From assembly GCA_022496805.1 (NCBI GenBank), contig CM040094.1:682001-746000 (forward strand): a DNA stretch of 64,000 nucleotides. The letters are read 5' to 3'. This stretch comes from Pohlia nutans (taxonomy: Eukaryota > Streptophyta > Bryopsida > Bryales > Mniaceae). This document shows positions 1-35,769 of this stretch, one piece after another. Numbering within the stretch: position 1 is the first letter of the stretch; each line of letters opens with the position of its first letter. The notes beneath the pieces were generated by a model that saw nothing but the letters and a program-made list of their open reading frames with translations, ran no database searches and was not told the origin of the DNA. The translations under genes and the position numbers were made by a program.

Positions 1-1
1 A

Positions 2-3000
2 AAACCTATTTCAAAGAGAAAATTTGTTGTACAAAAAGGTTATACTAGAGGCCAATGGACTGAAGAATTGATGCAAACTACTATCCAGAGTATTAAATCA
101 GGACAAAGATCAATTAGAAATGCATCCAAGTTCTTCTCTATTCCTACCTCATCTGTTAGGGATTGGATGTCAGGGAAGACAAGGACCAAAAGACATGGTC
201 ATGATCCCTACCTAACAGAGGTAGAGGAACGGGAACTTAAAACCTGGTGTTTTAAAATGCAAGAGATGGCATTTTCAGTAACCTTACCTATCCTCAAGAA
301 TACAGTAAGAGACATTGTGCAACGATTCCCACGGCAACATCCTTTCAAAGATGACCTTCCTGGCCAAACCTGGTGGGAATGTTTCAAGTCCCGGCATCCA
401 GATGTGGTGTTAAGACTTGGTGAAGGTTTAGAAATGAAGAGATGCGTTGGCTTAAACCACAAATCATGTTCACATTTTTATAGTGGATTAACCACTGTGA
501 TTACCTCTCATGGATATGAAGCATCTCACATATGGAATATGGATGAAACTGGGGTCCAGACAATAGGGAAAAATAGTACCCTAAAAGTTGTAGCAAAAAG
601 GGGTTCCAGAAATGTGAACATTCCAGCAGGTGACAACAGGGAATGGTTGACTATCGTTGTGTGCATCAGTGCTCATGGTACTTACATTCCTCCTTACTAT
701 ATATTCAAGGGAAAATATTTGCTTCAAAATTATGTGGAGCTATGTGGACCTGGAGCAGCAATGAACGTTCAAGAAAATGGTTGGATTACGAATGAGATAT
801 TTTGTGACTGGCTTGAACATTTTAAATCAAATGTTCCTGGAGGAGTCAGCAAACAAAATAAGCATCTTCTTATTTTAGATGGACATTGCAGCCACGTTAG
901 TGCTACTGCACTTGATACTTGCATCAGAATGGGAATTGATATCATGAGTATTCCGTCACATACTTCACACAAAATGCAGCCATTGGATGTATCATGTTTT
1001 AAACCTTTTAAACAGTATCTCCAAGAAGATAAAGCAAGTATGGCATTGAAGAATCCAAATTGGGCGAATAGCATCATGCTGAGAACAACCTTAGCTGGAA
1101 TGGCTGCAAATGCTCTTAAAAAAGCTTTGCAATCATCTACCATAATAGCAGGATTTAAGGCAACAGGTACTTCCTCGATTCTATTTTCATCTTCGTTACT
1201 TTTGCAATTGAATCACATTCAATTTATGTCAAAAATAATAATTTTTTTATTATATATTAAATATGTGGTTGAGATTGGGTTTGCTAAACAACAGGTATTT
1301 TTCCAATAAATTCGAAGGCCATGGAGAGCTTTTATGGACCAAGTATCCCTCATTCAACAAGTTCAATTTTACTTGAAGCTGTGAAGGATGAAAAAGGACC
1401 TGAAGATCAAGCGATTTCAGAATCAAATGACAATATTGAACAGGTGTTGCACAAAAACGTTGACGAAGTAATTAATATGATTCTTGAAGAGGTGCTCAAG
1501 GAAGAAGACACCAATCATGTCTTTTCTGAAGAGGATCCCATTGTTGTGTCAAATGAGGCATCTAAAACAGCTCAAGAAGTTGTTTGGCCATTAAATGACC
1601 CTAATCCAGTTGTAATTAGGGCTATTGATTTTCATTCCCTTAATGAAGGTCAATGGTTAACAGATACTCTCGTGGATTTCTATCTCAAATACCAGGAAAG
1701 AAAATATGAGTGTTTGAAAGGTTTTCATTTCTTCAACAGCTTTTTCTTTAGAAAATTGGTACTTGTTCATCAAGAGGATGGAATATATGGATTTGAAAAG
1801 ATTGGACGTTGGATAAAAGGTATCAACATCTTCAACTGTGACTATATCTTCTTGCCAATTCTACTAAGGTAATATTTCATTTCATTTCATTTGAAATTTC
1901 ATGACTGTTATTCAAAATTTCAATAATTTACTCATATATAAGTGATACTAATATTGTGTTCTTCCATGAAATGCAGTGGACATTGGAGCATGATTGTTAT
2001 CTGTAACCTTTGGAGCTCCATAGCTTGTTTACTCCATCTGAATTCAATGAAATCAACAACTCATTTGGATTTAATGGCACACGTTAAATTGTAAGATTTC
2101 TAAAGTATTTTTCAAGTTTATCAACATTATCCTTTCATTGATGTGTAGATGCTCGAAATATTACTGCAATTGATATGTTATTTGTATTGCAGTCTTTTGA
2201 GCTCAGAGTGGGACAGACAAAACAATATGGCGCCTTTACAAATTCCACGAAAGAAACTCCTTGAGCTTCAGATCCAAGTGATTGATGTAAGCCATTACTA
2301 AACTTGTGCAATTTCTTTATACAATAGAGTAGCAATTTGTACTATCACATATAAAAAGCACTAATTAGAGTAGGCTTGTCCACAATCTATGTTTAGTTTT
2401 TGTTCATTTAGGTACTGATTCTTGGTGATTCTTTTCACTTGTGGTGATTCTTTTCACTTATGGTGATTTTTTTCATATGTGGTGATTGGTGAAAGTTGCA
2501 ACGATTATGTGCAAAATTGTGAGAATGCAGGTTCCTCAACAGCCTGAAGGTAATGGAATAGATTGTGGCATCTATATGCTGAAAAACATGGAGATTGTTT
2601 TAGATACCATTGCTGAAGCTTTTACTTTGGGTCAAAACAGTGAATACACAGTAAGTATACACTTCTTTTAATTAATTTCTTGGTAAATTGTATAAATTAA
2701 TTGAGGTTAACTTAATTATTTGTTAGGCTCAGATAGTGCAACGCTTCCCATGTTTACTCGATTGTTTGTTAGGCTCAGATAGTGCAATGCTTCCCATGTT
2801 CATTTGATTATTTGTTAGGCTCAGATAGTGCAATGCTTCCCATGCTCACTTGATTATTTTACGTATGCAAAGCTTCCATGTTAATTTTGAACGTTTTTTA
2901 TGATTGAACAGTTAAGGAAAGTGAAGTGGGAGCTCAAAAATGTTATATTTCAAGATTTAGAAGCAAATGCAAAGAGAATGAGTATCAAACAAACAATATT

Positions 3001-3590
3001 GATGTTCCAAGGTGGATCAATTTTCTTATCAAATTCCAATGACAAGTAAGACAATATTTTCAATTTGATTATGTAAACTTGATTTTGCTTCACGTCAGTA
3101 TCTCAACCTCTCAATTTTTACACGCATTATTGATTTTCAAATATTTGATTATGTATGTTGTTACAGGACCAATGTCCATCAACAGGAAGACCTCTCCAGC
3201 ATCTTGAAGATTCCTTCATTCCCTACAGCTTCGAGAAGAAAGCCTAAGAATCCCAGAAGATTGAATCCTCATGGAAAATGCTTAACTTCACAAAAATATA
3301 CTTTGGAGAGGCAAAGAGTTGCAAAAGAACTGGAAGATGAGTTTAATAAGCAAGAGGAGAAGAAGCAGAGAAGAGCGAGCCTTGCAAAAGCCAAAAAGGA
3401 TGAAAAAATCTGGAAGCAGCTGGAAAAGGAGAGGGTAGCAGAATTGAAGAAGAAAGAAAAAAAAGAATGCCCAACAGAAAATAAGGTCGAGAAAAAACAA
3501 GAAATGAGGCTTAAAAGCCAACAGCGTCCAACAGTCATGCCTGTCAAAAAAAGAGCTTCTTTTGTAACGCCTCTAGTTAAAGTTGAATGA
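2..3590 (+). CDS. pogo/Tigger-like DDE transposase fused to an Ulp1 (C48) cysteine protease; 5' end outside window
   Basis: Seven exons read in one frame: 2-1166, 1295-1868, 1977-2090, 2193-2286, 2531-2650, 2912-3045 and 3167-3590 (874 codons plus stop). All introns are GT-AG and every phase matches. Exon 1 encodes a psq/CENP-B-type helix-turn-helix (WTEELMQTTIQ onward) and a pogo-type DDE core with acidic residues in NMDETG, LILDGHCSH and PLDVSCFKPFK. The first splice restores the family motif GFKATGIFP. Exons 2-5 encode an Ulp1 fold: WLTDTLVDFYLKY, catalytic His in GHWSMIVICN, Gln in VPQQP and Cys in DCGIYML. The expected Asp after the His is Asn (LLHLNSMK). Exons 6-7 give a Lys/Glu-rich, probably coiled-coil tail. 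Family knowledge: pogo transposases cut and paste at TA, and Ulp1 proteases process SUMO. The joint role is inferred. The start codon and left terminal repeat lie outside the window. It could be an autonomous transposon or a domesticated gene. Confidence 0.85.
2721..2860 (+). repeat. three-copy ~46-bp minisatellite in an intron of the pogo-Ulp1 gene
   Basis: Three direct copies of a ~46-bp unit starting TGTTAGGCTCAGATAGTGCA begin near 2721, 2766 and 2813, within the intron between the fifth and sixth exons (2651-2911). Copies differ by a few transitions. Confidence 0.9.
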
Positions 3591-3598
3591 ACATTGAT

Positions 3599-3815
3599 TG
3601 TGCACGGTTAGTAGTTAATGTAGTTAATTTCCAATGCCCAATACATTTGTATAAACAACTATGAAAAGGTCATGACTTTTCAATAAAAAATTCCATTTTA
3701 CTTTTCAACACTAATATTAAGTGAGCAATTATTTGAATTCAAATACCAAAATTGGAAAACTGTGGTACCCACCTCATAAAAAACAAAATCAAAGTCAAAT
3801 GTGCACGGTTAGTAG
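3599..3815 (+). repeat. 16-bp direct repeat downstream of the pogo-Ulp1 stop codon
   Basis: TGTGCACGGTTAGTAG occurs at 3599-3614 and again at 3800-3815. The pair may be subterminal repeats of the element or a small duplication. The other element end is outside the window, so the terminal inverted repeat cannot be tested. Confidence 0.6.
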
Positions 3816-3819
3816 CCTG

Positions 3820-4361
3820 TTTACGATACAGGAAGAGCTACAGAGAAGATTCTGTAGAAACCCAGCCCCTGGGGCGGGGGTTGACGTTTAAGGGTTAAAT
3901 AATTTGCGCAGACAGTTCACGGCTACCCGCCCCAGTTCCTCCTTTGTCGACTTTGATGCGGGCCTTTATTCGTGAAGCGCGTGGGCGACACACGTCTCCT
4001 TTGAGATCTCCACCGTCCGATCCAACCTCTCCGATCTAACGGCCCACACTTACTGCATGACACACGCCTCGATGGAATGGAATGGCGCCACGTCAAACCT
4101 GGCTTGTGCTCGGCACGATCTCTAGCCATTCCATCTCATTCCAGTACTCCACTTTTGAATTGGTCTAAATAGATTAGCAATTTAATATTAGTTCATGCTA
4201 ATTCATCCAGACTAGTTCCGTAGGAGTTATAGCATTCCCACCAGTGACTGGACCAGTTCAGAAGGAGTTATAGCGTTCCTACAGGTGACTGGTATCCTCA
4301 AATTTCTTGCTAAAAGTCAAGGTCCCAATTTGACTTGGAAAGACTTAACCCCTTTACGACA
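3820..4361. other. non-coding spacer with a GC-rich promoter-like patch
   Basis: No coding exon is seen. Positions 3840-4110 are richer in GC than the surroundings and contain CGTCCGATCC- and GCCACGTCA-like words that resemble plant promoter elements. At 4210-4290 there is a short imprecise direct duplication containing AGGAGTTATAGC. Any regulatory function is speculation. Confidence 0.4.
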
Positions 4362-7248: not shown

Positions 7249-10200
7249 TCAAAGGATGTGCTGAGTTTCTTTTGTGTCCACCATCTTGAGCATGTCTTGA
7301 ATTTCTATAAAGCGTGTCTTACTCAAGGGTTTGGTTAGTCCATCTGCTGCCTGAAGAGAGGACCGGACAAACTCAACTTGGATTCGCCCCTTCTTGATGT
7401 AATCACGGATCAAGTGACACTGCGCTTCGATGTGCTTGGTACGCGGGTGTAGGACTGGATTTTTCGCCATCTTGATGCAAGACTGGTTATTGCACGAGAT
7501 GATGATTGGTGCGTCGAGCTTCACTTCCATGTCACTGAGCAAGTGTCAAAGCCATTGAGCTTCCTTCGCTGCTTCTGCAAGTGCTCGGTACTCAGCTTCC
7601 GAGGATGATTGTGCTACTTCGGTTTGCCTCTTGCTTGTCCACGAAATTGGCCCACTGTCGAGAGAAAATACAAAACCTGTTGTGGACCTCCTGCCATCTA
7701 CATCCCCTGCGAAATCACTATCTGAATAGCCTGATGGTCTAATAATTTCCCCCCTTTGATAGTGAGTCACTAGAGAGGGATGAGCCTTGACATACCGAAA
7801 TATCTGTTGAGCAGCGTCAAGGTGAGGTTGCTGGGGAGCAGCCATAAAGCGTGAGACGAGCCCCACTACGAAGGCAATGTCGGGGCGCGAGGTTTGAAGA
7901 TGAAGTAATTTTCCTACAGTAATGCGATAGTATGTAGGATCAACTAACGGAGTGCCCATATCTGTGGCCAATTTTGTACCGGGATCTAGTGGGACACATG
8001 TCCCATAACAGTCTTGTAAACCAAGATCACGGAGACATTTGAGAACATACCTTTCATGGGACATGAAGACGCCGGTGGCAGTGTAGAGAAATTGCACGCC
8101 CAAGTAAATTGCCAGGCGGCCAAGCATGGTCATCTCGAATTTTTCGCAAAGCTCGGAAATCAGCCACGAGATCTTGGATGTGTGAGAGCCGATGATGAGT
8201 ACGTCGTCAACGTAGATGACCAAAAGAACTATCAGAGGCCCCTCCTGAAAAACATACAGACTCGGGTCTGCAATTGAAGCGGAGAGACCTACTTCATGAA
8301 GATAGCCATCTATACGCTTGTTCCAAGCTCGTAGAGATTGACGGAGGCCGTAGAGTAATCAATGAAGTTTGCAGACCTTGGATTCTTTGCCTGCAATTAC
8401 AAAACCGGGGGGTTGAACAAGATAGACGTCTTCTTTGAGAATCCCGTTCAAGAAGGCAGACTTGACGTTGAGGTGCAGAACCTGCCAGTCTTGTTGAGCG
8501 GCCAGTGACACCAATGTGCGCATAGTGGTCCAACGTACGACCGGCGCAAAGGTCTCATGATAATCCAGACCTTCAATTTGTTCGTTTTCGCGTGCCACGA
8601 GACGAGCTTTATGAGTCAAAGTACTGTCGGAGCCTGTCTTCAATTTGTAAATCCATTTGGCATGGATGGGACGGCAACCTGTAGGAAGGTCAACAATCGA
8701 CCAGGTCTAATTGCGCTCAACGGAGGCAATCTCTGCTTCCATAGTGCTGAGTCACTGAGGCTGAGAAACAACTTGTCGATAATTTAGAGGCTCACCAGAG
8801 TCTGTCTCCACAACAGTAAGAATATCGTCCATAGTTTGCACAGTAGCCACGTAGTTGCGAAGCCAAGTGGATGGAGCACGAGACCGTGATGATCGATGTA
8901 GAACTGAAGAGTCGTCATCTTGCAAAAACTCGGTGTCGACGAGCCCCGAACCAGCTGGGTTGTCATCAAGATCGGCAGGACGTGGGCGGCGAGTGTAGAC
9001 TCGTAGTGACGGTGATGATGGAGCATGCTCGAACTGGCTGTGATCAGGCAGTGGTGACTGCATAGGGTCGGACTGCAGTGACGGTGCTGGAGATTGGACT
9101 GTGCTGGAAGTCGGAGTCGACAATCTCGGCGGTGACGGCATCGGATTGACGGGAACCAGTGGCTGACGGGAGCCAGTGGCAGACTGCGAGGAGCATGGAG
9201 ATCAGGAGAATCAGTAGATCCTTGAGTCCGGATCTGACTTGATGACGGTCTGGTCGAGGCGTAGGCAGGGTCAAGAACTTCGATGGCTGCATTGTCTTCT
9301 GTCAAAGACTCAATCGAAACACTAGATCGGCCCAGAGAGTTGGGAGGTGAGTACCAAAATCTGTGTTCGTCGAATTTCACGTCGCTACTCACTAGAACTT
9401 TGCGAGTCGCTGGGTTGTAGCAGCGATAAGCCCGGGTGTCATCTGAGAACACGAGCATAATGCACGGTGTAGATTTTGCGTCGAGCTTTGTGCGATGCTC
9501 ATCAGGAACATGCACATGAGCGATACAACCATATACTCGTAAGTGTGCTAGATTAGGAACTTTGCCAAAGAGGCGTTGATAGGGTGAAACCTCCCCGTTG
9601 GCCCGTGTAGGTGACCGGTTAGTGAGATAATTGGCACAATTGACAACCTCACTCCAAAGAAATCTGGGGGCACGGACATCAGCCACCATGGCTCTCGCTT
9701 TTTCAAGCAACGTTCGGTTCTTGCGTTCCGATACACCATTCTGGCGAGGCGTGTGTGCCTGGATGAGTTCTCTAGTGATCCATGTGGATTCACAGAAGGC
9801 ATTGAACTCCTGACTAAGAAACTCTCCTCCTCAGTCGCTCCGCAATGCTAAGATTTTGTGATCTAGGAGATTCTCAACCTTCACTTTGAAGATTTGAAAG
9901 AAGTGAAATGTCTGGGATTTGTTGCACAAGAAGTACAACCACGTAAAACGTGAGAAGTCATCAGTGAAAGAAGAAAAATAAAGAGAGCCTCCTAGCGATG
10001 CTGGTCAAATCATTCTACAGAGATCGGTATGAATAAGAGCAAGGGGACGTTTGGCTCGACGTTCACTGGACTTGACAGCACGTTCTCTAGACTGTTTACC
10101 CTCAATACAACTATTGCAAGGTTTATCAGACCCTGGCATGAGCGGCACTCCTTGAGCAAGTCTGTGTTGGCCTATGAACCTCACACTATGTTGGTTTAAA

Positions 10201-10757
10201 TGTCCAAGACGACGATGCCAGAGGTGTGGCACAATCGGGGACTGAACTGCACAAATTAGAAAGGAAGGTTTTTCTACAATATAGCGATACAATCCTGTGT
10301 CCTCACGAATTCCCCGAGTCACTATCTTATGTGGACCGTCATATACGAGACATTTTTTGTGGTCAAAGACTAAGATGAATCCTTCATCTGCAATTTTGCC
10401 TACAGAAAGTAAATTGCGAGTTAATCCTGGGACGTAGTAAACATCTCGAATGTTTATTTCAGCAGAGGAACCAAAAGATACAGAACTTGTTCCTTGAACA
10501 GATAAGGTCTCGTTGCCAGCAGTAGAGATACTCGCTGAACCTGGGCTAAGGTCTAGGCTGTTGAAAACATTCCGGTCTCCGCTGACATGACGAGAGGCTC
10601 CGGAGTCTACCAGCCACTCTTCCTTTCCAAGGTCTAAGCCTGCTAAGGCAACTTCAAACACGTCTAGCTCTTTCTCAGAACTGTTGTCAAGTTCTTCTAT
10701 CACGACGTTAGAAACACACAATTCGCTATTTACGCACTTGGCTATATAATCATGCAC
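7249..10757 (-). pseudogene. Copia pol: protease, integrase, RT and RNase H, disrupted
   Basis: On the minus strand, 10757-10005 encodes the protease (LVDSGASRHVSG) and the gag-pre-integrase motif (HLWHRRLGHLNQHS). Next come a broken integrase core (FTDDFSRFTW, ALRSD then a stop, GGEF) and the integrase C-terminus (FLWSEVVNCANYLTNRSP, 9710 onward). A frameshift near 9.2 kb moves the reading to the frame that continues to 7249: KARLVAREN, LNVKSAFLNG, YVDDVLIIG, then RNase H (SEAEYRALAEAAKEAQWL, TKHIEAQCHLIRDYI). In-frame stops occur near 8750, 8357 and 7544. The first RT aspartate (normally LDVKSAFLNG) is Asn. The enzyme is therefore dead. Confidence 0.93.
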
Positions 10758-11227
10758 TTGGTCCCCGAGCGCATGATTTAATTTGTCTAACTTTTATTTT
10801 TAAAAAACCAACGATTATTGTCTTTCTTCAATCCCTTACATTGTAAACAAATAATTATTTTAATAAATTTTTATTCTCATCTTTATCTTTTCTTTTATCT
10901 TTTCTTTTTTATCTTGATTTCTTTCTCGTCTTCTTTCTTGTCTCCCTCTTGTCTTTCTTCTTGTCTTCCTTTTGTCTTCGTTGTCTTTTTTTTCTTCTAC
11001 TTTTTCTTCAGTTGTGGCTGCTGAACCCTAAACAATGGGAGCAAACCAAAAAAAAAAAAAAAAAACAAGTTTTTTTTTTTTTTTTTTTTTTCGTTTTTCG
11101 GGTTGGCCGTGGGGTGCTGAATGGCAGCCACCAAAAAAATAAAAATAAAAATAAAAATAAAATAAAATTTCCCTTTTTCTTGGCCGTGGGGTGCTGCTGA
11201 ACCATGAAGGCCTGAATGGCAGCTGCC

Positions 11228-11258
<31 letters not shown>

Positions 11259-11376
11259 TTTTTTTTTGACTTTCTTGACTTTTTCTAAAAATTACTATTT
11301 TTAGTCGCTGGGGTGCGCGGCCGCGCACCCAAAGACTTTTCTTCCTCTTCTTCTCCTTCCCCTCTCCTCATATATA

Positions 11377-12978
11377 CAGTGACTTTAAAAAATGAGTCTT
11401 TGAGGGTATTTAATTTAGAAAAGTAACAACGTAGAGAGTATGAAGAATCAAAGCAATAAATTTTGAACATGAAAGTTTGAGAGCATGAAGTAATTGACAA
11501 CCTCAAGAAAATTGAAAAGAAATTGCCACTAGATTAAAAAAATACATAGTGCCAAAGTTGACTATGTACATAGACTCATTTTTTGAGGCGTTATAGAAAG
11601 AGTGGTCAAAATCTTGTCCACTTTCCACGAGCAGCCAAAACAGCTGCAATTCGATCTGGCATGCTAGCATACAATCTCTCACACTGCTCTGTAGTGATCG
11701 TCTTATAAGTCTCCTCCACACGCTCCCATAATTGCAAAAGACCTACAGGAGGAGTTGGATAGGAATTCAAACGATGTTTGAGAATTGCCCAAACATGTTC
11801 TATGGGATTTAGGTCTGGGGATTGAGCTGGCCACTCTAAAACAGTGAATGGCTGCTCTAAGAACCATTTCTGAACAATCTTTGCCTTATGTATAGGAGCA
11901 TTATCATGCTGGAAAATGACGTTACCGAGGTTCAAGTATCCTAATCTCTCTAAACTCAAGTACAAATCTCCATGCAAGATTGTAATATAGTCCTTCGCAT
12001 TTATACGCCCGTCCACCCTTTGTAAATCACCTACACCTCTTGCTGTCATACAACTCCATAGCATCAAAGACCCTCCACCATGCTTCACTGTTTGCTTCAC
12101 CGCACGATCAGGGAAGATTTTTTGGTCATTGACCCAGCACCAAGTCCTCCCATCCGCATTGAAACGATTTATCTTCGTTTCATCACTAAATACAACTCTC
12201 TTCCAATCCTCTACTGTCCACTCTTCATGAATTCTTGCAAATCGTAGCCTCTCTCGTACATTTTTCTTTGACAAACAAGGCTTAGGAATCTTCTCACAGG
12301 CATTCAATCCAGCATCTCTCAAAACAGACCGCAAAGTGTTATCACAGAAACCCACTTCTCTACCCTCTCTCAACACTTTTGCTGCATGTACTGTCGTTTC
12401 TAGCCCTCCAACCGTGACCAAACGCACTGCACGTCGTATCTCTGAAGCGCTAAGAATCTTTGGAACACCTCGTTTTGGCAATTCTAAGTCACTACAATGT
12501 TTCTTCCTCACTCTATTCACTGTACTCTGTGAGAAACCCAATGACTTCGCAACCACTCTTGTACTCTTGCCTTTCATCAAAAGAGCAACAATATCTCTCA
12601 CTTTGTCTCCTGAAATTGGCTTCATCATGCCAATTCTAATTCCTATTCTCCACAGTATGTTCCACAAGAGGGAAGAGAAGAGAAAGCACAAAAAAATTCA
12701 TCAAAAAACACAAATTTCTCTATGTTCTACACTCAAATGTTGCCATGTGAAGTTGCTCCACAAGCCACCTCAAAAAATGAGTCTATAAGGGAACATGCAC
12801 ATTTGTGATCTTAACTCACAATGTAGATATTATTTAGGCAAAGCGCCATGTGGCATGTGTTAAGAGTTCATGAGTCACAATAGATTTTTTTGCTCGGCTT
12901 CATCTGCCTTAATGTTTCCCGGCTAGCCCCCATCAATGCTCCTTGATAGGGGCATTGACTCATTTTTTGAAGTCACCG
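11377..12978 (-). mobile_element. Tc1-type DNA transposon, copy 1, structurally complete
   Basis: A 1602-bp element. Left end CAGTGACTTTAAAAAATGAG, right end CTCATTTTTTGAAGTCACCG, each about 22 bp, with TA on both sides (11375-11376 and 12979-12980). A further inverted copy of the GACTCATTTTTT motif lies ~200 bp inside each end (11573 and 12783). The element holds one intact transposase gene. It sits at the centre of the surrounding palindrome, exactly between the two arms. Confidence 0.93.
11606..12628 (-). CDS. Tc1/mariner transposase, DD34E, intact
   Basis: A 340-codon uninterrupted frame from MMKPISGDKVRDIV; an in-frame upstream ATG at 12691 would add 21 hydrophobic residues and is less likely. 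An N-terminal paired-type helix-turn-helix (STRVVAKSLGFSQSTVNRVRKKH) is followed by a second HTH region. The catalytic residues are Asp in VVFSDETKINRF, Asp in FQHDNAPIHKAK and Glu in SPDLNPIEHVW. Exactly 34 residues separate the last two, the Tc1 DD34E pattern. The glycine-rich loop GGGSLMLW and the C-terminal RLYASMPDRI motif are normal. Such proteins bind their own ends and move by cut and paste into TA. Length and motifs fit an active enzyme, but activity is inferred. The DD34E type is typical of animals and fungi; plant mariner-like elements are usually DD39D. Confidence 0.93.
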   Translation of the reverse strand: MMKPISGDKVRDIVALLMKGKSTRVVAKSLGFSQSTVNRVRKKHCSDLELPKRGVPKILSASEIRRAVRLVTVGGLETTVHAAKVLREGREVGFCDNTLRSVLRDAGLNACEKIPKPCLSKKNVRERLRFARIHEEWTVEDWKRVVFSDETKINRFNADGRTWCWVNDQKIFPDRAVKQTVKHGGGSLMLWSCMTARGVGDLQRVDGRINAKDYITILHGDLYLSLERLGYLNLGNVIFQHDNAPIHKAKIVQKWFLEQPFTVLEWPAQSPDLNPIEHVWAILKHRLNSYPTPPVGLLQLWERVEETYKTITTEQCERLYASMPDRIAAVLAARGKWTRF

Positions 12979-13359
12979 TATATAGGGGAGAGGTGAGGGG
13001 AGGGAGAGGGAGTTGCAGAATGAATGGCAGAGACCCTCTCCTCTCCCCTATATATATGAAGAGAGGGGAGGGATGGAGAGGGAGGGATGGAGATGAAAAT
13101 GAGGGAGATGAGAAGGTTTATGGGTGCGCGGCCGCGCACCCAAGCGGCTAAAAATAGTAATTTTTAGAAAAAGTCAAAAAAGTCAAAAAAAAAAATTTTT
13201 TTTTTTTTTTGGCAGCTGCCATTCAGGGTTTAGCAGCACTCCACGGCCAAGGAAAAGGGAATTTTTATTTTATTTTATTTTTTGGCGGCTGCCATTCAGG
13301 ATTCAGCAGCACTCCACAGCCAACCCGAAAAACGAAAAAAAATAAAAAATAAAAAATAA

Positions 13360-13361
13360 AA

Positions 13362-13392
<31 letters not shown>

Positions 13393-13393
13393 T
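13360..13393. repeat. (TAA)n microsatellite
   Basis: About eleven AAT/TAA units in the right arm of the foldback element, next to A-rich and T-rich homopolymers. The left arm has A and T homopolymers at the equivalent site. Confidence 0.9.
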
Positions 13394-13775
13394 TTTTTTG
13401 GTTTGCTCCCATTGTTTAGGGTTCAGCAGCCACAACTGAAGAAAAAGTAGAAGAAAAAAAAGACAACGAAGACAAAAAGGAAGACAAGAAGAAAGACAAA
13501 AAGAAGACAAGAAGAAAGACAAGAGGGAGACAAGAAAGAAGACAAGAAAGAAATCAAGATAAAAAAGAAAAGATAAAAGAAAAGGTAAAAGAAAAGATAA
13601 AGATGAGAATAAAAATTTATTAAAATAACTATTTGTTTACAATGTGGGGGATTGAAGAAAGACAACATTGATGCTTTTTAGAGAACTATTTAACCAACTT
13701 TAAGTTTTTAAAAGTCAAATATGCTTATGAAATGAGCGCACTTGGCCAAGTGCATAAATAGCGAATTGCGTGTTT

Positions 13776-14636
13776 AGATTGCAGTGACGGTGACCCCATC
13801 GAATGCTTGCCCTGGCGTTCTCGAGCACGCCTTGCCATCTCATGCGCTAGCTCATGACAGTTGCGCATGAAGTGGCCGGGTTTCCCGGACCAGTTGCAAC
13901 ACATTGGAGCACGATTTTGGCCACTACTGCCATGACCCCGATAAGTTAGAGGCTGCGTGTTGGGCCTTGGGGAGAAGCTTCATGGCTGATAACTGCTTGG
14001 ACCGTTGCTCCTAAAGCGCATCGCAAGAGCTTCGTCTTTAGTCGAGGCAGACATGTTAGCACGCATCTTGTTGCGGCTCTCATCTTGTAGGAGTCTTGCT
14101 GACACTTGTTCAAAACTAGGAAGAACTGCGCTAGTACAGAAACTCTGATACACTGAGTCAAAGCTTGGTGGTAGCGTGTTTAATATACGCTCGACAATTT
14201 CACTCTCAGGGACTTGTTGTCCTATGCCTGCTAACTCGACTTGTATCTCTTGGATCTGCCGCAGATAGTCAGAGACTGATCCTCCTTCATAGAGTCTGAC
14301 TTGGCTCAATTTGTCCTTCAGCATTAACCGAGATGCATTGTTTCCGGTTCGGAAACGAGCTGCAAGTCTGTTCCATGCGTCCCTAGGATCGACACTTAAT
14401 TGAGTGATGGGATACAGCTCTTCCTTGAGTGCAAGATTAATATCTGTCAAAGCTTTAATTCTACCTTGAGCGATGTCTGTTGGCTCTCCCGGAACCTTTA
14501 CGTTGGTTCCTTGGGGATCTACGTACTGCCAGTTGTTGTTCCTCAGGTGAATCATTTTCATCCTGAACTTCCAAGTTTGATAGTTTGAGTAACCTCCCAG
14601 CTTGCTAGTTTCTGGGAAATTGTCAGAGGACGACAT
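13776..14636 (-). pseudogene. Copia gag (UBN2-type) with zinc knuckle
   Basis: From ATG at 14636 (MSSSDNFPETSKLGG) the frame encodes a Copia gag (YQTWKFRMKMI, DAWNRLAARF, YLRQIQEIQVELAG, VERILNTLPPSFDSVY) to a TGA near 13978. The same frame continues to a zinc-knuckle-like CNWSGKPGHFMRNC. Its second position is Ser where Cys is usual in CX2CX4HX4C. The frame ends at the edge of the nested insertion. An upstream in-frame ATG at 14690 is possible but lies closer to the primer-binding site. Confidence 0.88.
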
Positions 14637-14920
14637 GGCTAAGAACTTGACTGAGATCCTGACGTAACTGAACTTTAAAACGTAAGACAAACACTATGAG
14701 TATTATAAGTAAACACTGAGAACTTGACTTTGCTTCTATATTGTCAGTAAACACAACTATTGTTACAACTGCCTCTTGTAGACTCTGAGCAAAGCTCAAG
14801 CGTCCTTTCTGTCATAATCTCTTAATACGGTCTGAACTACGGAGCAGTGCTCACGTTGATCGATCGAAATAACTATAAACTTTGATGCACGGAGCAATGC
14901 TCACGTATGACTTGATTTAC

Positions 14921-27755: not shown

Positions 27756-29893
27756 TTAGGCGTATGATACACGATCTCCGAGCCTATGGACGACGTTCCG
27801 AATCTGATGGCCTTTCCCCCAGAAGGAGGCGAGCGACAAGCCCATAATAGCCATGACAACCACGGAGCAAGCAGGAGGAACTGCATGACTTCCTCCCAGA
27901 AATTGGGTGGCCAACAGCATTGCCAGAGTGGAGCTTTGCATGCCTGTGCACAAGCTGATCGTCCGTGCCACTTTCTCCTCTTGCTTCCAGAACGGCAATC
28001 TGGGAACCCAATATCCCAGAACAAAAGCGCTCACGTGGAAGGCCAACACAGGGAATAGAAGCCGAAATCCTTCCATGGACACAATACGACTTCTGTTCAA
28101 GGCTAACGGGCTTCCAATACACAACGACGTGCACACCATCGCCATCAGAGGCATAAATGGCCTAATCTTGTCCACAAAGCTTTTAGCATATGTGTTCAGA
28201 CTGAGACCAAGCACAATGGGCAGGATCACCACCTGCAAACCACCACACGTACATAGACAATGATATGAGTTGCCCGCACAAACTATCCCCAAGATAACAA
28301 AATAACAAAGACGATAACTAAATAACAACGATGATAACAATGGAATTGCCCTACAAATGATGTCGCTTAATTGTACATCATTCACCAAAGCAGCCTCGTC
28401 TACAGGTGATATTACCTGAAGGATGGATTTGCCCATAGCAATGACGTCCACCGGCACCACAGATCCGATCAGAAGTTTCGTCAGCAGAGGGGTAATAATT
28501 ACTGAAGAGACAGTGGTCAAACTAGTCAAGATGATGCTCAAGGCAACATCGCCTTCACTTAGAAAAGCAGCATAACTTGAGAGTTGAGCCCCAGCGACGC
28601 ATGATGTCAGGATCAACCCAGACGAGAACGCTGGCGAAACACTGAATGCCGCACACACCAGTAGTCCCAGAACAGGCTTCACCATGTACTGAGCGACATA
28701 TCCTACGAGCACAGGCAGAGGCCTGGAACAATCAAACAGTACAAGCCTTAGAACTTGTAAAGAGACACATTCTGGACAAGTAAGAGATCCTAGAACGGTC
28801 TAGTTTTGCGCAAAAGAAAATCTATAGTACGTGGAACATCTATTAGTTTTGGAAAGAACGATCGATTTCAAAAAGACCATACCTTTTCAACACAAGAGCA
28901 AAATCGGAAACGGAGAGCTGCACACCGATTGATAGCATGATTCCCCCTAGGGCCGGAGCATAATAATCTTTACTGACCCTGCACATAAAATTAAATGCAA
29001 CGGTGAGCCCTAAAACCTGAGGAAAATGAACCCTTCCTGTCCAATTCTCCAGATAATCCAGAATCTCTGAATAAGTAGAAGAAAAGACATAATTTGTTTT
29101 CCGTTCACACATCAACAATGAGACCGTCGCTACATTTAACAAGAGCCACGAATAATATTGATCAATAGGTTACAAGGAAGATCGATTGCCACATACCAAG
29201 CAAAAGAAGCGGGTTGAGTCAACGCAGCTACTGCCGTTGCTAAAACAACGTAAGGAAGCATTTGAGATAGTGACTTGGTGAGATCAACTTTCTGTCCCTT
29301 CTTGTCACGCTTGACTTTGATTCCGAACGACGCCAGTGACACATTGCCTTCTCGTATGTACGTACCGACTCTGCCTTTGTCGCGAGCTCTGACCATCTCA
29401 ATAGCAGCCACCTCCTGTCCCTCGTAGGACGTGGAGGCGCGAGGATTCTGAGAGGAGGCTTGAGAATTGCCAGCATTCACATCCGAATGGCGCTTACTCT
29501 TATCACAGATTTTTTTATGATGAGATGGTCTGCTCTTGTCTCCAGAAGGACCTCTATCTGTAACAAAAAGATCACACGGACACACTTGGGTCAGTTTTAG
29601 CTCAGGTAAGCATGCCAGCCTCGTCGACACGAAGAGGAAATTTCGCAAAGTGATCTGCGAATATGTAAGAGGGACTTACATTTGGCACTACACTGTAAGA
29701 CATGATGGAACAATTCTGCGCGCCTAATAAATCCATAATAGAAGAGATCGTGCTTGGGAAGACGGGAGCCGAGGAAAACGCTGCTTCTACTTGATGATGA
29801 GCGGTTGCTCAATGCGTCAGATCGAATAGAGATCCCAGATAGTGTTGGTAAACTTCGAATACTGTGTCCAGCATTCGCAATACTAGCAGCCAT
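27756..29893 (-). CDS. bile acid:sodium symporter (BASS) family transporter, plastid-targeted
   Basis: Five exons on the minus strand: 29893-29680, 29557-29197, 28978-28883, 28722-28416 and 28232-27756. All are GT-AG with matching phases and give 484 residues. The first ~75 residues are Ser/Arg-rich with few acidic residues, like a chloroplast transit peptide. The membrane region has the family blocks ALGGIMLSIGVQLSVSDFAL, GYVAQYMVKPVLG, SCVAGAQLSSYA, SILQVVILPIVLGL, MVCTSLCIGSPLALNR, ISLCTGMQSSTLAMLLA and CSVVVMAIMGLSLASFWG. Plant relatives co-transport organic acids with sodium across the plastid envelope. Substrate here is unproven; BASS1-like is my closest match. An in-frame ATG at 29944 could extend the start. 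The last intron (28233-28415) is 183 nt with no stop in frame, so retention would insert 61 residues. Confidence 0.92.
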
Positions 29894-34147: not shown

Positions 34148-35769
34148 CAGTGTCTAGCAAAACTGAGTCAAATTTTTGAAATTTTTGATTCAATCGACAA
34201 TGTAAAGAATTTGGTAACAGGTCATTACAAGCTATAAAATGTGTAAGATAATACTTTAAGTAGGCTACATTTTCATGGGAAAAAAAGTATCTTTCACATT
34301 AATATGTACAAAGAAATTACATTTAACGGAAACTATATTCCGTGACTCACTTTTGCATCCTCTATCACAAAACAATTTAGTACTTTGTCCACTTGCCTTT
34401 GCTAGCTATAACAGCTTGGATTCGCTTTGGCATGCTCTCATATAACCTTCTACACTCCTCTGGTGTAATGGAAGCCCAACATTCTTCAATACGCTCCCAC
34501 AATTCTAAAATTCCCTTTGGAGCACTTTCATATTGATTGAGACGGTGTTTTAGCCTTGCCCAAAGGTGCTCAATAGGATTTAAATCAGGGGATTGCGCAG
34601 GCCATTGAAGAACATTAAGCCCATGTAATTTCAACCATTGGCGAACACTTTTTGCTGTATGTTTGGGATCATTATCATGCTGAAAAATTAGATGGGAAGG
34701 ATCAAGATCATAAGCTATAATACTGTACAATAAATCTTTCTGCAAGATTTCCTTGTATTGATGTTGATCCATTCTTCTTTCAACTCTACAACAAATACCA
34801 AGACCCTGGAACGTCATGCAACCCCACACCATCACCGAACCACCACCAAACTTTACTGTTTGTTGAAATTGTCTTGAATTAGAAGATTGTCCATCACGAA
34901 TTCAACACCAACTGCGACCATCTGAGCAAAATCAGTTTACCTTTGTCTCATCAGAGAAGATCACGCGCTCCCAATCACAAATGGTCCAATGTTCATGGCG
35001 CCTAGCAAATTCAAGTCGCTCCTTGATGTGTTTCTGGTTCAATTTTGGCTTCTTCTGCTTCACTTTTGATTTGAGCCCTGCAGCACGTAACACCCTTCTC
35101 ACTGTATCAACACTTACAGTAACATGGCATTCGCCACGCACATGTTGAGCAATCTGTGTTGCAGCATCAATGCCTCCTAACGTAGCAGCTTTGATGCATA
35201 CTCTCTTCTGTGCATCTGTAAGCGCTTGTGGTCTACCTCCACAACTAGCTTCAAGATCAAGCAATCTCTTCTTTTTAATCCGTGCAATATAACTCTGAGA
35301 CACCTGCAACTCATTTGCTACATCTCTTGTAGAACTACCAGCTTCCAACTTGACAACAATAGAGTTGTTGAGGTCTCTTCTAGCACTAGCAGAAAGCTCC
35401 TTCAAATGTACCATGATGATAAAACAAGATCAACAAAAAATAGGTAAAGAGCTTCCAGTGAAGGACTATGCAATGAGTATGACCCCCTGGATCTTGAACC
35501 TCTTGCTTTGCCTTAATATTCATGATCATGAAGCTCATTGTGTTCAATGTGGAAGAGGCATGCAAAACTGAGTCATGCCACATTTCTGAGTTGCATCATC
35601 AATATCTCATCCAAACTTTGACATATGGCTATGTGGATTGATTGCCATGTACCACACTTGAAGCAATATCTTCTGACAATATTGATTAAAAAAATAATGC
35701 TTTGTTTTATGTGTAATTTAAGGTCAAAATTACATTTATGACAAGTTGACTCAGTTTTGCTACTCACTG
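34148..35769 (-). mobile_element. Tc1-type DNA transposon, copy 2
   Basis: 1622 bp with ends CAGTGTCTAGCAAAACTGAG and CTCAGTTTTGCTACTCACTG, and TA at 34146-34147 and 35770-35771. Inverted subterminal copies of the GCAAAACTGAGTCA motif lie ~200 bp inside each end (34342-34362 and 35555-35576). Its sequence differs from copy 1 but the design is the same. Confidence 0.94.
34377..35414 (-). pseudogene. Tc1/mariner DD34E transposase with two nonsense codons
   Basis: One frame runs from MVHLKELSASARRDLNNSIV at 35414 to KWTKY at 34377, about 346 codons, broken only by two TGA codons between 34932 and ~34890 (KVN-stop-FCSDGRSWC-stop-IRDG). Copy 1 has Arg and Trp at these places (NRFNADGRTWCWV), so both stops fit C-to-T or G-to-A transitions. 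An HTH (SSTRDVANELQVSQSYIARIK), Asp in FSDETK, Asp in FQHDNDPKHTAK and Glu in SPDLNPIEHLW at 34-residue spacing are preserved. The element is therefore dead but young. Confidence 0.92.

Follow-up and report, generated by a model that had tools for sequence, protein, structure and literature searches.

A pogo-type DNA transposon of the moss Pohlia nutans with a predicted transposase-Ulp1 fusion gene

Analysis of a 64,000-nucleotide stretch of the Pohlia nutans genome (C10:682001-746000, hereafter the window) revealed that its positions 2-3590 correspond to the coding region of a DNA transposon 5.28 kb in length, based on a gene model and an alignment of genomic copies. We have very little doubt that this region is part of a pogo-type element with one gene in which a transposase is fused to an Ulp1 (C48) domain, related to the ULP2-type proteases that act on the small ubiquitin-like modifier (SUMO). 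Our overall reading, to which we assign a probability of about 0.55, is that of an autonomous-type pogo transposon in which a ULP2-type SUMO-protease module has been captured into the transposase gene, SUMO editing included. The genome searched comprised 697,796,988 bases in 332 contigs.

The fused gene and its genomic copies

The gene model within the window has seven exons on the forward strand, separated by six GT-AG introns with matching phases, and encodes 874 amino acids (aa) followed by a stop codon (Table 1). The reading frame continues past the left edge of the window, where flanking genomic DNA supplies an ATG and 35 more codons to give a protein of 909 aa; residue numbers below refer to this longer protein and Pfam ranges to the 874-aa model. 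The predicted order of the protein is a helix-turn-helix (HTH) region, a pogo DDE_1 core (DD35D), a linker, a ULP2/SENP7-type Peptidase_C48 domain and a basic tail. Pfam matches were obtained to DDE_1 (E 2.2e-24, residues 213-384) and Peptidase_C48 (E 5.3e-23, residues 508-680). The N-terminal CENP-B/psq-type HTH of the pogo superfamily was found via HTH_Tnp_Tc5 (E 4.4e-5, residues 73-136), at 23.8 bits barely above the cut-off of 22.2 bits, and a match to HTH_psq (0.025, residues 20-63) fell below its own cut-off. The DDE_1 catalytic residues Asp216, Asp328 and Asp364 are present in all five young copies of the element, with a spacing of 35. In the Pfam scan of the 874-aa model there was no Mutator-type transposase domain at E 0.1 and no integrase domain of the kind that forms the Gypsy-integrase-like core of Ginger1, the core being DDE_1. 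Neither the Rfam scan nor the tRNA scan of the window had a match.

The joint between the transposase and the Ulp1 part rests on more than splice guesses. This is because the frame of exon 2 spans both parts and because the core of the diverged relatives L050 and L057 continues in frame past the place of the exon 1/2 joint, with no intron there. A decayed counterpart of intron 1 was seen in three other relatives (L043, L044 and L045). The splice 1166/1295 also completes the GIFPIN end of the transposase core, an end that reads GIYPL and GIFPL in the database proteins P0001 and P0002. The original prediction for this stretch, made from its letters alone, of a pogo-type transposase and an Ulp1 domain in one seven-exon protein is thus upheld: the three Asp residues and the TA-flanked ends described below accompany the DDE_1 match, the Pfam search that it called for returned Peptidase_C48, and the protein that it gave as at least 874 residues extends to 909. 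In intron 5, a stretch of ~100 bp (window 2706-2887) is tandemly doubled at 79% identity, and likewise in the copies on C4, C6 and C2.

Five copies, on the large contigs C10, C2, C3, C4 and C6, align end to end over ~5.28 kb, which excludes a chance origin of the gene model. Every copy begins with TA followed by TCGTATATAGGCCACTTACCG and finishes with CGGTTAGTAGCCTGTTTACGA followed by TA, with unrelated flanks in all five cases, so that the TA-flanked genomic copies that had been anticipated do exist. The terminal inverted repeat is 21 bp long with 4 mismatches (by eye). Pairs of copies differ by 24-34 substitutions (0.46-0.64%), and the gap-free variable columns comprise 66 singletons and 1 shared column; this star-like variation is as expected of a recent spread or burst. 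The gene model is open, without internal stops, in the C10 and C4 copies (2/5), the latter missing 15 bases in frame, and is interrupted by one stop each in the C6 and C3 copies and by two in the C2 copy. The C6 copy also has AT instead of AG as the acceptor of intron 1.

The non-coding ends of the element carry a repeated motif, ACCG[TC][GT]C, which was first picked by eye and then counted on both strands: five occurrences lie in the left 260 bp, two in the right 260 bp and none in the intervening 4688 bp. Short relatives of these ends were also observed. A genome DNA search with window 1-3840 as query gave 46 matches from the best 40 of 57 candidates, and by our own count at least 26 of them align to the 3' part of the query alone. 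When 14 of these were examined with up to 3 mismatches allowed per end, 11 proved to be 466-532-bp stretches whose inverted-repeat ends resemble those of the element, and three (L024, L034 and L037) had no such repeat-bounded structure. As a control, the same test found an end pair in 2/280 shuffled sequences and in 0/12 unrelated loci. From their sequences, the ~0.5-kb stretches look like derivatives of the miniature inverted-repeat transposable element (MITE) kind.

Origin of the Ulp1 part and relatives of the fusion

Among the 10 Ulp1-type protein hits, the closest annotated match to the Ulp1 domain is ULP2A of Physcomitrium patens (P0025; 6.3e-25, 30% identity). The top matches among solved structures are to SENP7 (3eay, 6.1e-18; 7r2e, 8e-18), with SENP2 also matched. 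One intron, immediately preceding the xHW motif, is found at an identical position and in the same phase in the window copy, in L057, and in L004 and L008, which we infer from their sequences to be host ULP2-type genes. The intron before VPQQ is common in position and phase to the window copy and L008; in L057 its acceptor side alone is seen, and L004 lacks it. Because two intron positions and phases are shared, these data suggest that the Ulp1 part was captured as genomic DNA from a ULP2-type gene. In the Ulp1 tree, in which the L057 row was typed from exon pieces without one exon, the window copy, L043, L044, L046, L047 and L050 were united (93/84) with L057 outside, and an approximately unbiased (AU) test went against a single clade of all seven fused rows (p 0.037). 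The window copy and L057 share, by eye, a donor site of roughly equal position and phase that L008 and L004 lack, which opposes a separate capture in L057. Ulp1 may have been captured once or twice.

A second multi-copy ULP2-like family was observed in this genome: L001 (C17), L002 (C5) and L003 (C15), and also L004-L007. L001 and L002 are 99.5% identical across the full 3.3 kb fetched, L003 is ~99% identical to both over 2.36 kb, and L001 carries the HW, HLD and DCG motifs. This family may represent a further SUMO-protease gene that is mobile or was duplicated recently.

The transposase core was placed in a tree of 27 rows, whose database hits all had DDE_1 and came from no pogo family with a name (a length filter removed P0005 and P0008). 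The five fused rows formed one clade with P0001 and P0002 (97/93), in which L057 branched first and the remaining six rows, including P0001 and P0002, grouped at 86/81. A clade of the fused rows alone was not rejected (p 0.108); for this reason, P0001 and P0002 may or may not once have had Ulp1. One further idea was tried and dropped, namely that the window tail is a pogo C-terminal tail, sharing an LTS motif with P0005, P0008 and P0009, and that Ulp1 had been inserted into the transposase ahead of it. Against a profile built from these three tails, the window tail obtained -18.7 bits, with a large HMMER composition correction, and 1999/2000 shuffles of it did as well or better. In BLAST, the tail by itself gave E 0.15 against P0009; for a whole-protein query against 34 proteins, P0008 matched the tail best (E 0.004). 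The insertion claim was abandoned because the tail profile did no better than shuffles.

To place the fusion among its relatives, we fetched ten loci from the DNA search (L043-L052; L048 is the fifth young copy) together with L057, which was chosen for its neighbouring DDE_1 and C48 matches. Six diverged, decayed loci have a DDE match, and four of these (L043, L044, L050 and L057) have an Ulp1 match downstream on the same strand; the two parts are therefore not always separate genes in homologues, which the original prediction had named as a finding that would speak against it. In L045, the DDE match is accompanied by an Ulp1 match of just 21 residues, and L051 and L052 have a tail match alone. 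Since the loci were picked by similarity, this proportion of fused loci is no unbiased estimate.

In the genome-wide domain searches, the best 150 of 449 DDE_1 candidates were scored, and the C48 search gave 73 matches from the best 150 of 172 candidates. A comparison by eye of the matches listed found at least five DDE_1 matches with a same-strand C48 match a few kb downstream (Table 1). This comparison misses some fusions, because the C48 domain of the fused young copy on C3 was not among the matches listed. On this evidence, the fusion appears to be a minority among the pogo-like elements of this genome, among the matches listed. All 150 scored DDE_1 (pogo-like) matches were above the cut-off, and many have open frames of >500 aa, although a restricted occurrence of pogo in land plants has been described (PMC7386202). 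At C16:6564840-6568277 on the reverse strand, the order is reversed: a DDE_1 match has a same-strand C48 match (L005) ~2.7 kb upstream.

Searches in other sequence collections gave no confirmed relative for the exon-2 piece among the genome contigs searched (23 pattern matches) and none for exon 1 among the viral contigs searched (6 pattern matches). The protein searches, in which 7990 candidates were scored for the transposase, yielded 24 hits of the transposase type and 10 of the Ulp1 type, and no hit had both domains in its annotation; some of these hits may be predictions ending at introns, so that this null result does not show absence.

Proposed SUMO editing and its alternatives

We consider it probable that the Ulp1 part is functional at the protein level. 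None of the five young copies has lost His617, Gln688 or Cys696. L057 retains the HW, HLDSM and DCG motifs, with the catalytic Asp kept, and the older state was therefore probably active. Other observations weigh against SUMO editing by the fused protein. The usual catalytic Asp, to which residue 637 aligns in SENP2 and SENP7, is Asn in all five young copies and also in L046, L047 and L050, which makes protease activity uncertain. The description of the protein as a transposase with its own deSUMOylase hence stands for the C48 domain and falls short for an active enzyme, and the action on host silencing or on its own stability that was suggested for it is a proposal. In papain-type proteases the triad is Cys-His-Asn, and because papain has Asn at that place, SUMO-protease activity may be possible. 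Among the relatives, L049 has a DDE match without an Ulp1 match in the 9.9 kb fetched, and L046 and L047 have an Ulp1 match (plus tail) without a DDE match in the 9.9 kb fetched for each.

Ratios of nonsynonymous to synonymous change (dN/dS; Nei-Gojobori, window copy as reference) bear on the same question, and these too come with points on the opposing side. The values are taken from similar stretches picked by tblastn in decayed, stop-bearing copies, share one reference and have dS >1 in several cases; read in this way, they are 0.23 (L043), 0.14 (L044), 0.29 (L046), 0.27 (L047) and 0.28 (L050) for Ulp1, with 1.70 for the 20 codons of L045; 0.41 (L043), 0.22 (L044), 0.64 (L045) and 0.17 (L049) for DDE; and 1.06 (L043) and 0.48 (L044) for the linker, DDE and linker not being computable for L050. 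Overall, there are signs, in outline, of constraint on both halves, with 5/6 Ulp1 comparisons low.

We hypothesize that the HTH region would bind the repeated subterminal ACCG(T/C)(G/T)C motifs and the DDE core would cut and paste at TA. The tethered Ulp1 domain would remove or edit SUMO on proteins at the ends of the element, which might be SUMO-dependent factors of silencing, proteins of DNA repair or the transposase, and this would keep the transposition complex active or the copies less silenced. We put the chance of catalytic deSUMOylation in cis at about even, and the placing of a SUMO step at the ends of the element is inference modelled on the Ulp1 genes that VANDAL elements have captured. 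VANC, an anti-silencing protein of VANDAL elements, acts via non-coding motifs that are often tandem repeats (PMC5735166), the precise function of Ulp1 in such plant elements is unknown according to a review (PMC13317346), and a role of Ulp1 in transposition was speculated for Ginger1 (PMC2836005). Neither Ulp1 nor SUMO occurs in the text of PMC5735166. More tentatively, and with the balance leaning against it, the element could belong to an old plant pogo lineage that extends beyond this moss, with a SUMO-editing transposase that would protect both its own complex and the MITE derivatives against being silenced or degraded in a SUMO-dependent way, independently of Mutator and Ginger1 and possibly with a papain-like Cys-His-Asn triad. 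A wider spread of the lineage is hinted at by the moderately supported (86/81) placing of P0001 and P0002 within the fused clade.

A different role for the same protein was considered, in which the Ulp1 domain has lost or reduced proteolysis and acts as a SUMO-binding reader that guides the transposase to chromatin rich in SUMO or retains its SUMOylated partners. Asn637 in every young copy and in three relatives, yet with constraint in 5/6 comparisons, would fit such a reader. We nevertheless find it unlikely, as His617, Gln688 and Cys696 are intact in 5/5 copies, Cys-His-Asn is a papain-type triad, and the HW, LDSM and DCG motifs of L057 point to an ancestral state that was probably active. 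It is more improbable still that the gene makes two products, a transposase read through intron 1 to a stop at 1307-1309 and a separate Ulp1 protein from the ATG at 1321. Read-through would lose the GIFPIN end, whose counterparts GIYPL and GIFPL are retained in P0001 and P0002; L050 and L057 are intronless at this place, with the frame continuing; and the intron 1 counterpart of the decayed L043 and L044 copies contains an in-frame stop (by eye). Two products would be compatible with the lack of an in-frame stop in intron 1 of the window copy, the presence of the ATG, and the AT acceptor of the C6 copy.

That the Ulp1 part is a passenger of gene capture with no role of its own, like many captured fragments, seems very improbable to us. 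Plant elements often capture genes and most captured sequence decays (PMC13317346), but here the order with Ulp1 recurs in several diverged loci, in which signs of constraint are seen, and its His, Gln and Cys are intact in the young copies. Practically no weight is left for a domesticated host gene without a mobile element. The open gene model in 2/5 copies could be taken in its favour; it is already contradicted because the ends are common to unrelated flanks, the five copies having TA-flanked inverted-repeat ends and being only 0.46-0.64% apart, and short derivatives with related ends exist.

Elsewhere in the window, pieces of other mobile elements and a symporter frame, probably a host gene, were observed (Table 1).

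Table 1. Features of the fused element, same-strand DDE_1/C48 pairs and other features of the window (window positions unless a contig is given)
Feature	Position	Strand	Content or basis
Left TA	C10:680541-680542, outside window	.	Copy alignment
35 codons left of exon 1	Mostly outside window	+	Genomic sequence
Exon 1	2-1166	+	HTH region and DDE_1 catalytic core; Asp codons 542-544, 878-880, 986-988
Intron 1	1167-1294	+	GT-AG
Exon 2	1295-1868	+	GIFPIN (end of transposase core), linker, first half of Ulp1/C48; single open frame
Exon 3	1977-2090	+	Catalytic His617 (1981-1983); Asn637 (2041-2043) where C48 matches have Asp
Exon 4	2193-2286	+	Part of Ulp1
Exon 5	2531-2650	+	Gln688 (2540-2542), catalytic Cys696 (2564-2566)
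Exon 6	2912-3045	+	End of Ulp1 region
Exon 7	3167-3590	+	Basic, coiled-coil-like tail (by eye) and stop codon
3' non-coding end	3591-3826	+	Two GTGCACGGT motifs; terminates in right terminal inverted repeat (...CGGTTAGTAGCCTGTTTACGA)
Right TA, target-site duplication	3827-3828	.	Copy alignment
DDE_1 then C48	C10:682638, C2:38863150, C4:38209675, C6:4391083, C6:5629468	same strand	Comparison of lists by eye
Copia-type retrotransposon pieces	7549-14693	-	RVT_2, Pol_BBD, gag_pre-integrs, Retrotran_gag_2
Tc1/mariner-type transposase frames	11609-12697, 34380-35429	-	DDE_3, HTH_Tnp_Tc3_2; first open over 363 codons
Sodium bile acid symporter family frame	27759-28799	-	SBF 7.1e-26

Comparison with known systems

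The moss element resembles the pogo superfamily (PMC7386202) in its TA target site, its terminal inverted repeats, and its HTH and DDE_1 domains with three Asp residues, whose spacing of 35 lies inside the DD29-56D range; it differs in having Ulp1/C48 in the same gene, seven coding exons in the model and a moss as its host. In that survey, pogo elements of land plants were reported as Lemi alone, from 23 eudicot species, and the words Ulp1, protease and moss do not occur in its main text. With Ginger1 (PMC2836005) the element shares a transposase protein that has Ulp1 downstream (C-terminal) of the DDE core, but the Ginger1 core is Gypsy-integrase-like whereas that of the moss element is DDE_1, and the Ulp1-bearing Ginger1 families in the table of that paper are from Hydra. 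The Kaonashi/KIU genes of VANDAL Mutator-like elements (PMC13317346) are similar in that a host-captured Ulp1 was long retained in a plant element; there, however, Ulp1 is one of three element genes, and in the moss it lies inside the transposase gene. CryptonF and CryptonS (PMC3212892) are also mobile elements with a C48 peptidase, but they are tyrosine-recombinase elements of oomycetes. Plant ULP2 and human SENP6/SENP7 are the best sequence matches of the domain, and two intron positions are shared with the moss ULP2-type gene L008; in contrast to these, the domain is only ~30% identical to moss ULP2A, has Asn for the catalytic Asp and is fused to a transposase.

In a collection of 5.39 million open-access papers, with subscription papers and Repbase reports outside the search, we found no pogo transposon with Ulp1, a SUMO protease or C48 and, among the titles listed, no such element in bryophytes. 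The suggestion that this is an undescribed system accordingly holds within that literature for the pogo case, and is too strong for the kind of system, because Ulp1 is known in Ginger1 (PMC2836005) and VANDAL (PMC13317346) elements. Our sequence comparisons suggest that one more transposon superfamily has taken up a part of the host SUMO machinery. Pogo would thereby join the Mutator-like, Ginger1 and Crypton elements, in which, in the papers cited, the role of Ulp1/C48 is not established. In one plant genome, young copies occur together with diverged relatives, with short derivatives and with ULP2 genes of host type, and because all of these coexist there, the question of why transposons want a SUMO protease becomes directly testable. 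The element also widens the known range of pogo in land plants, which had been described as restricted to the Lemi elements of eudicots (PMC7386202).

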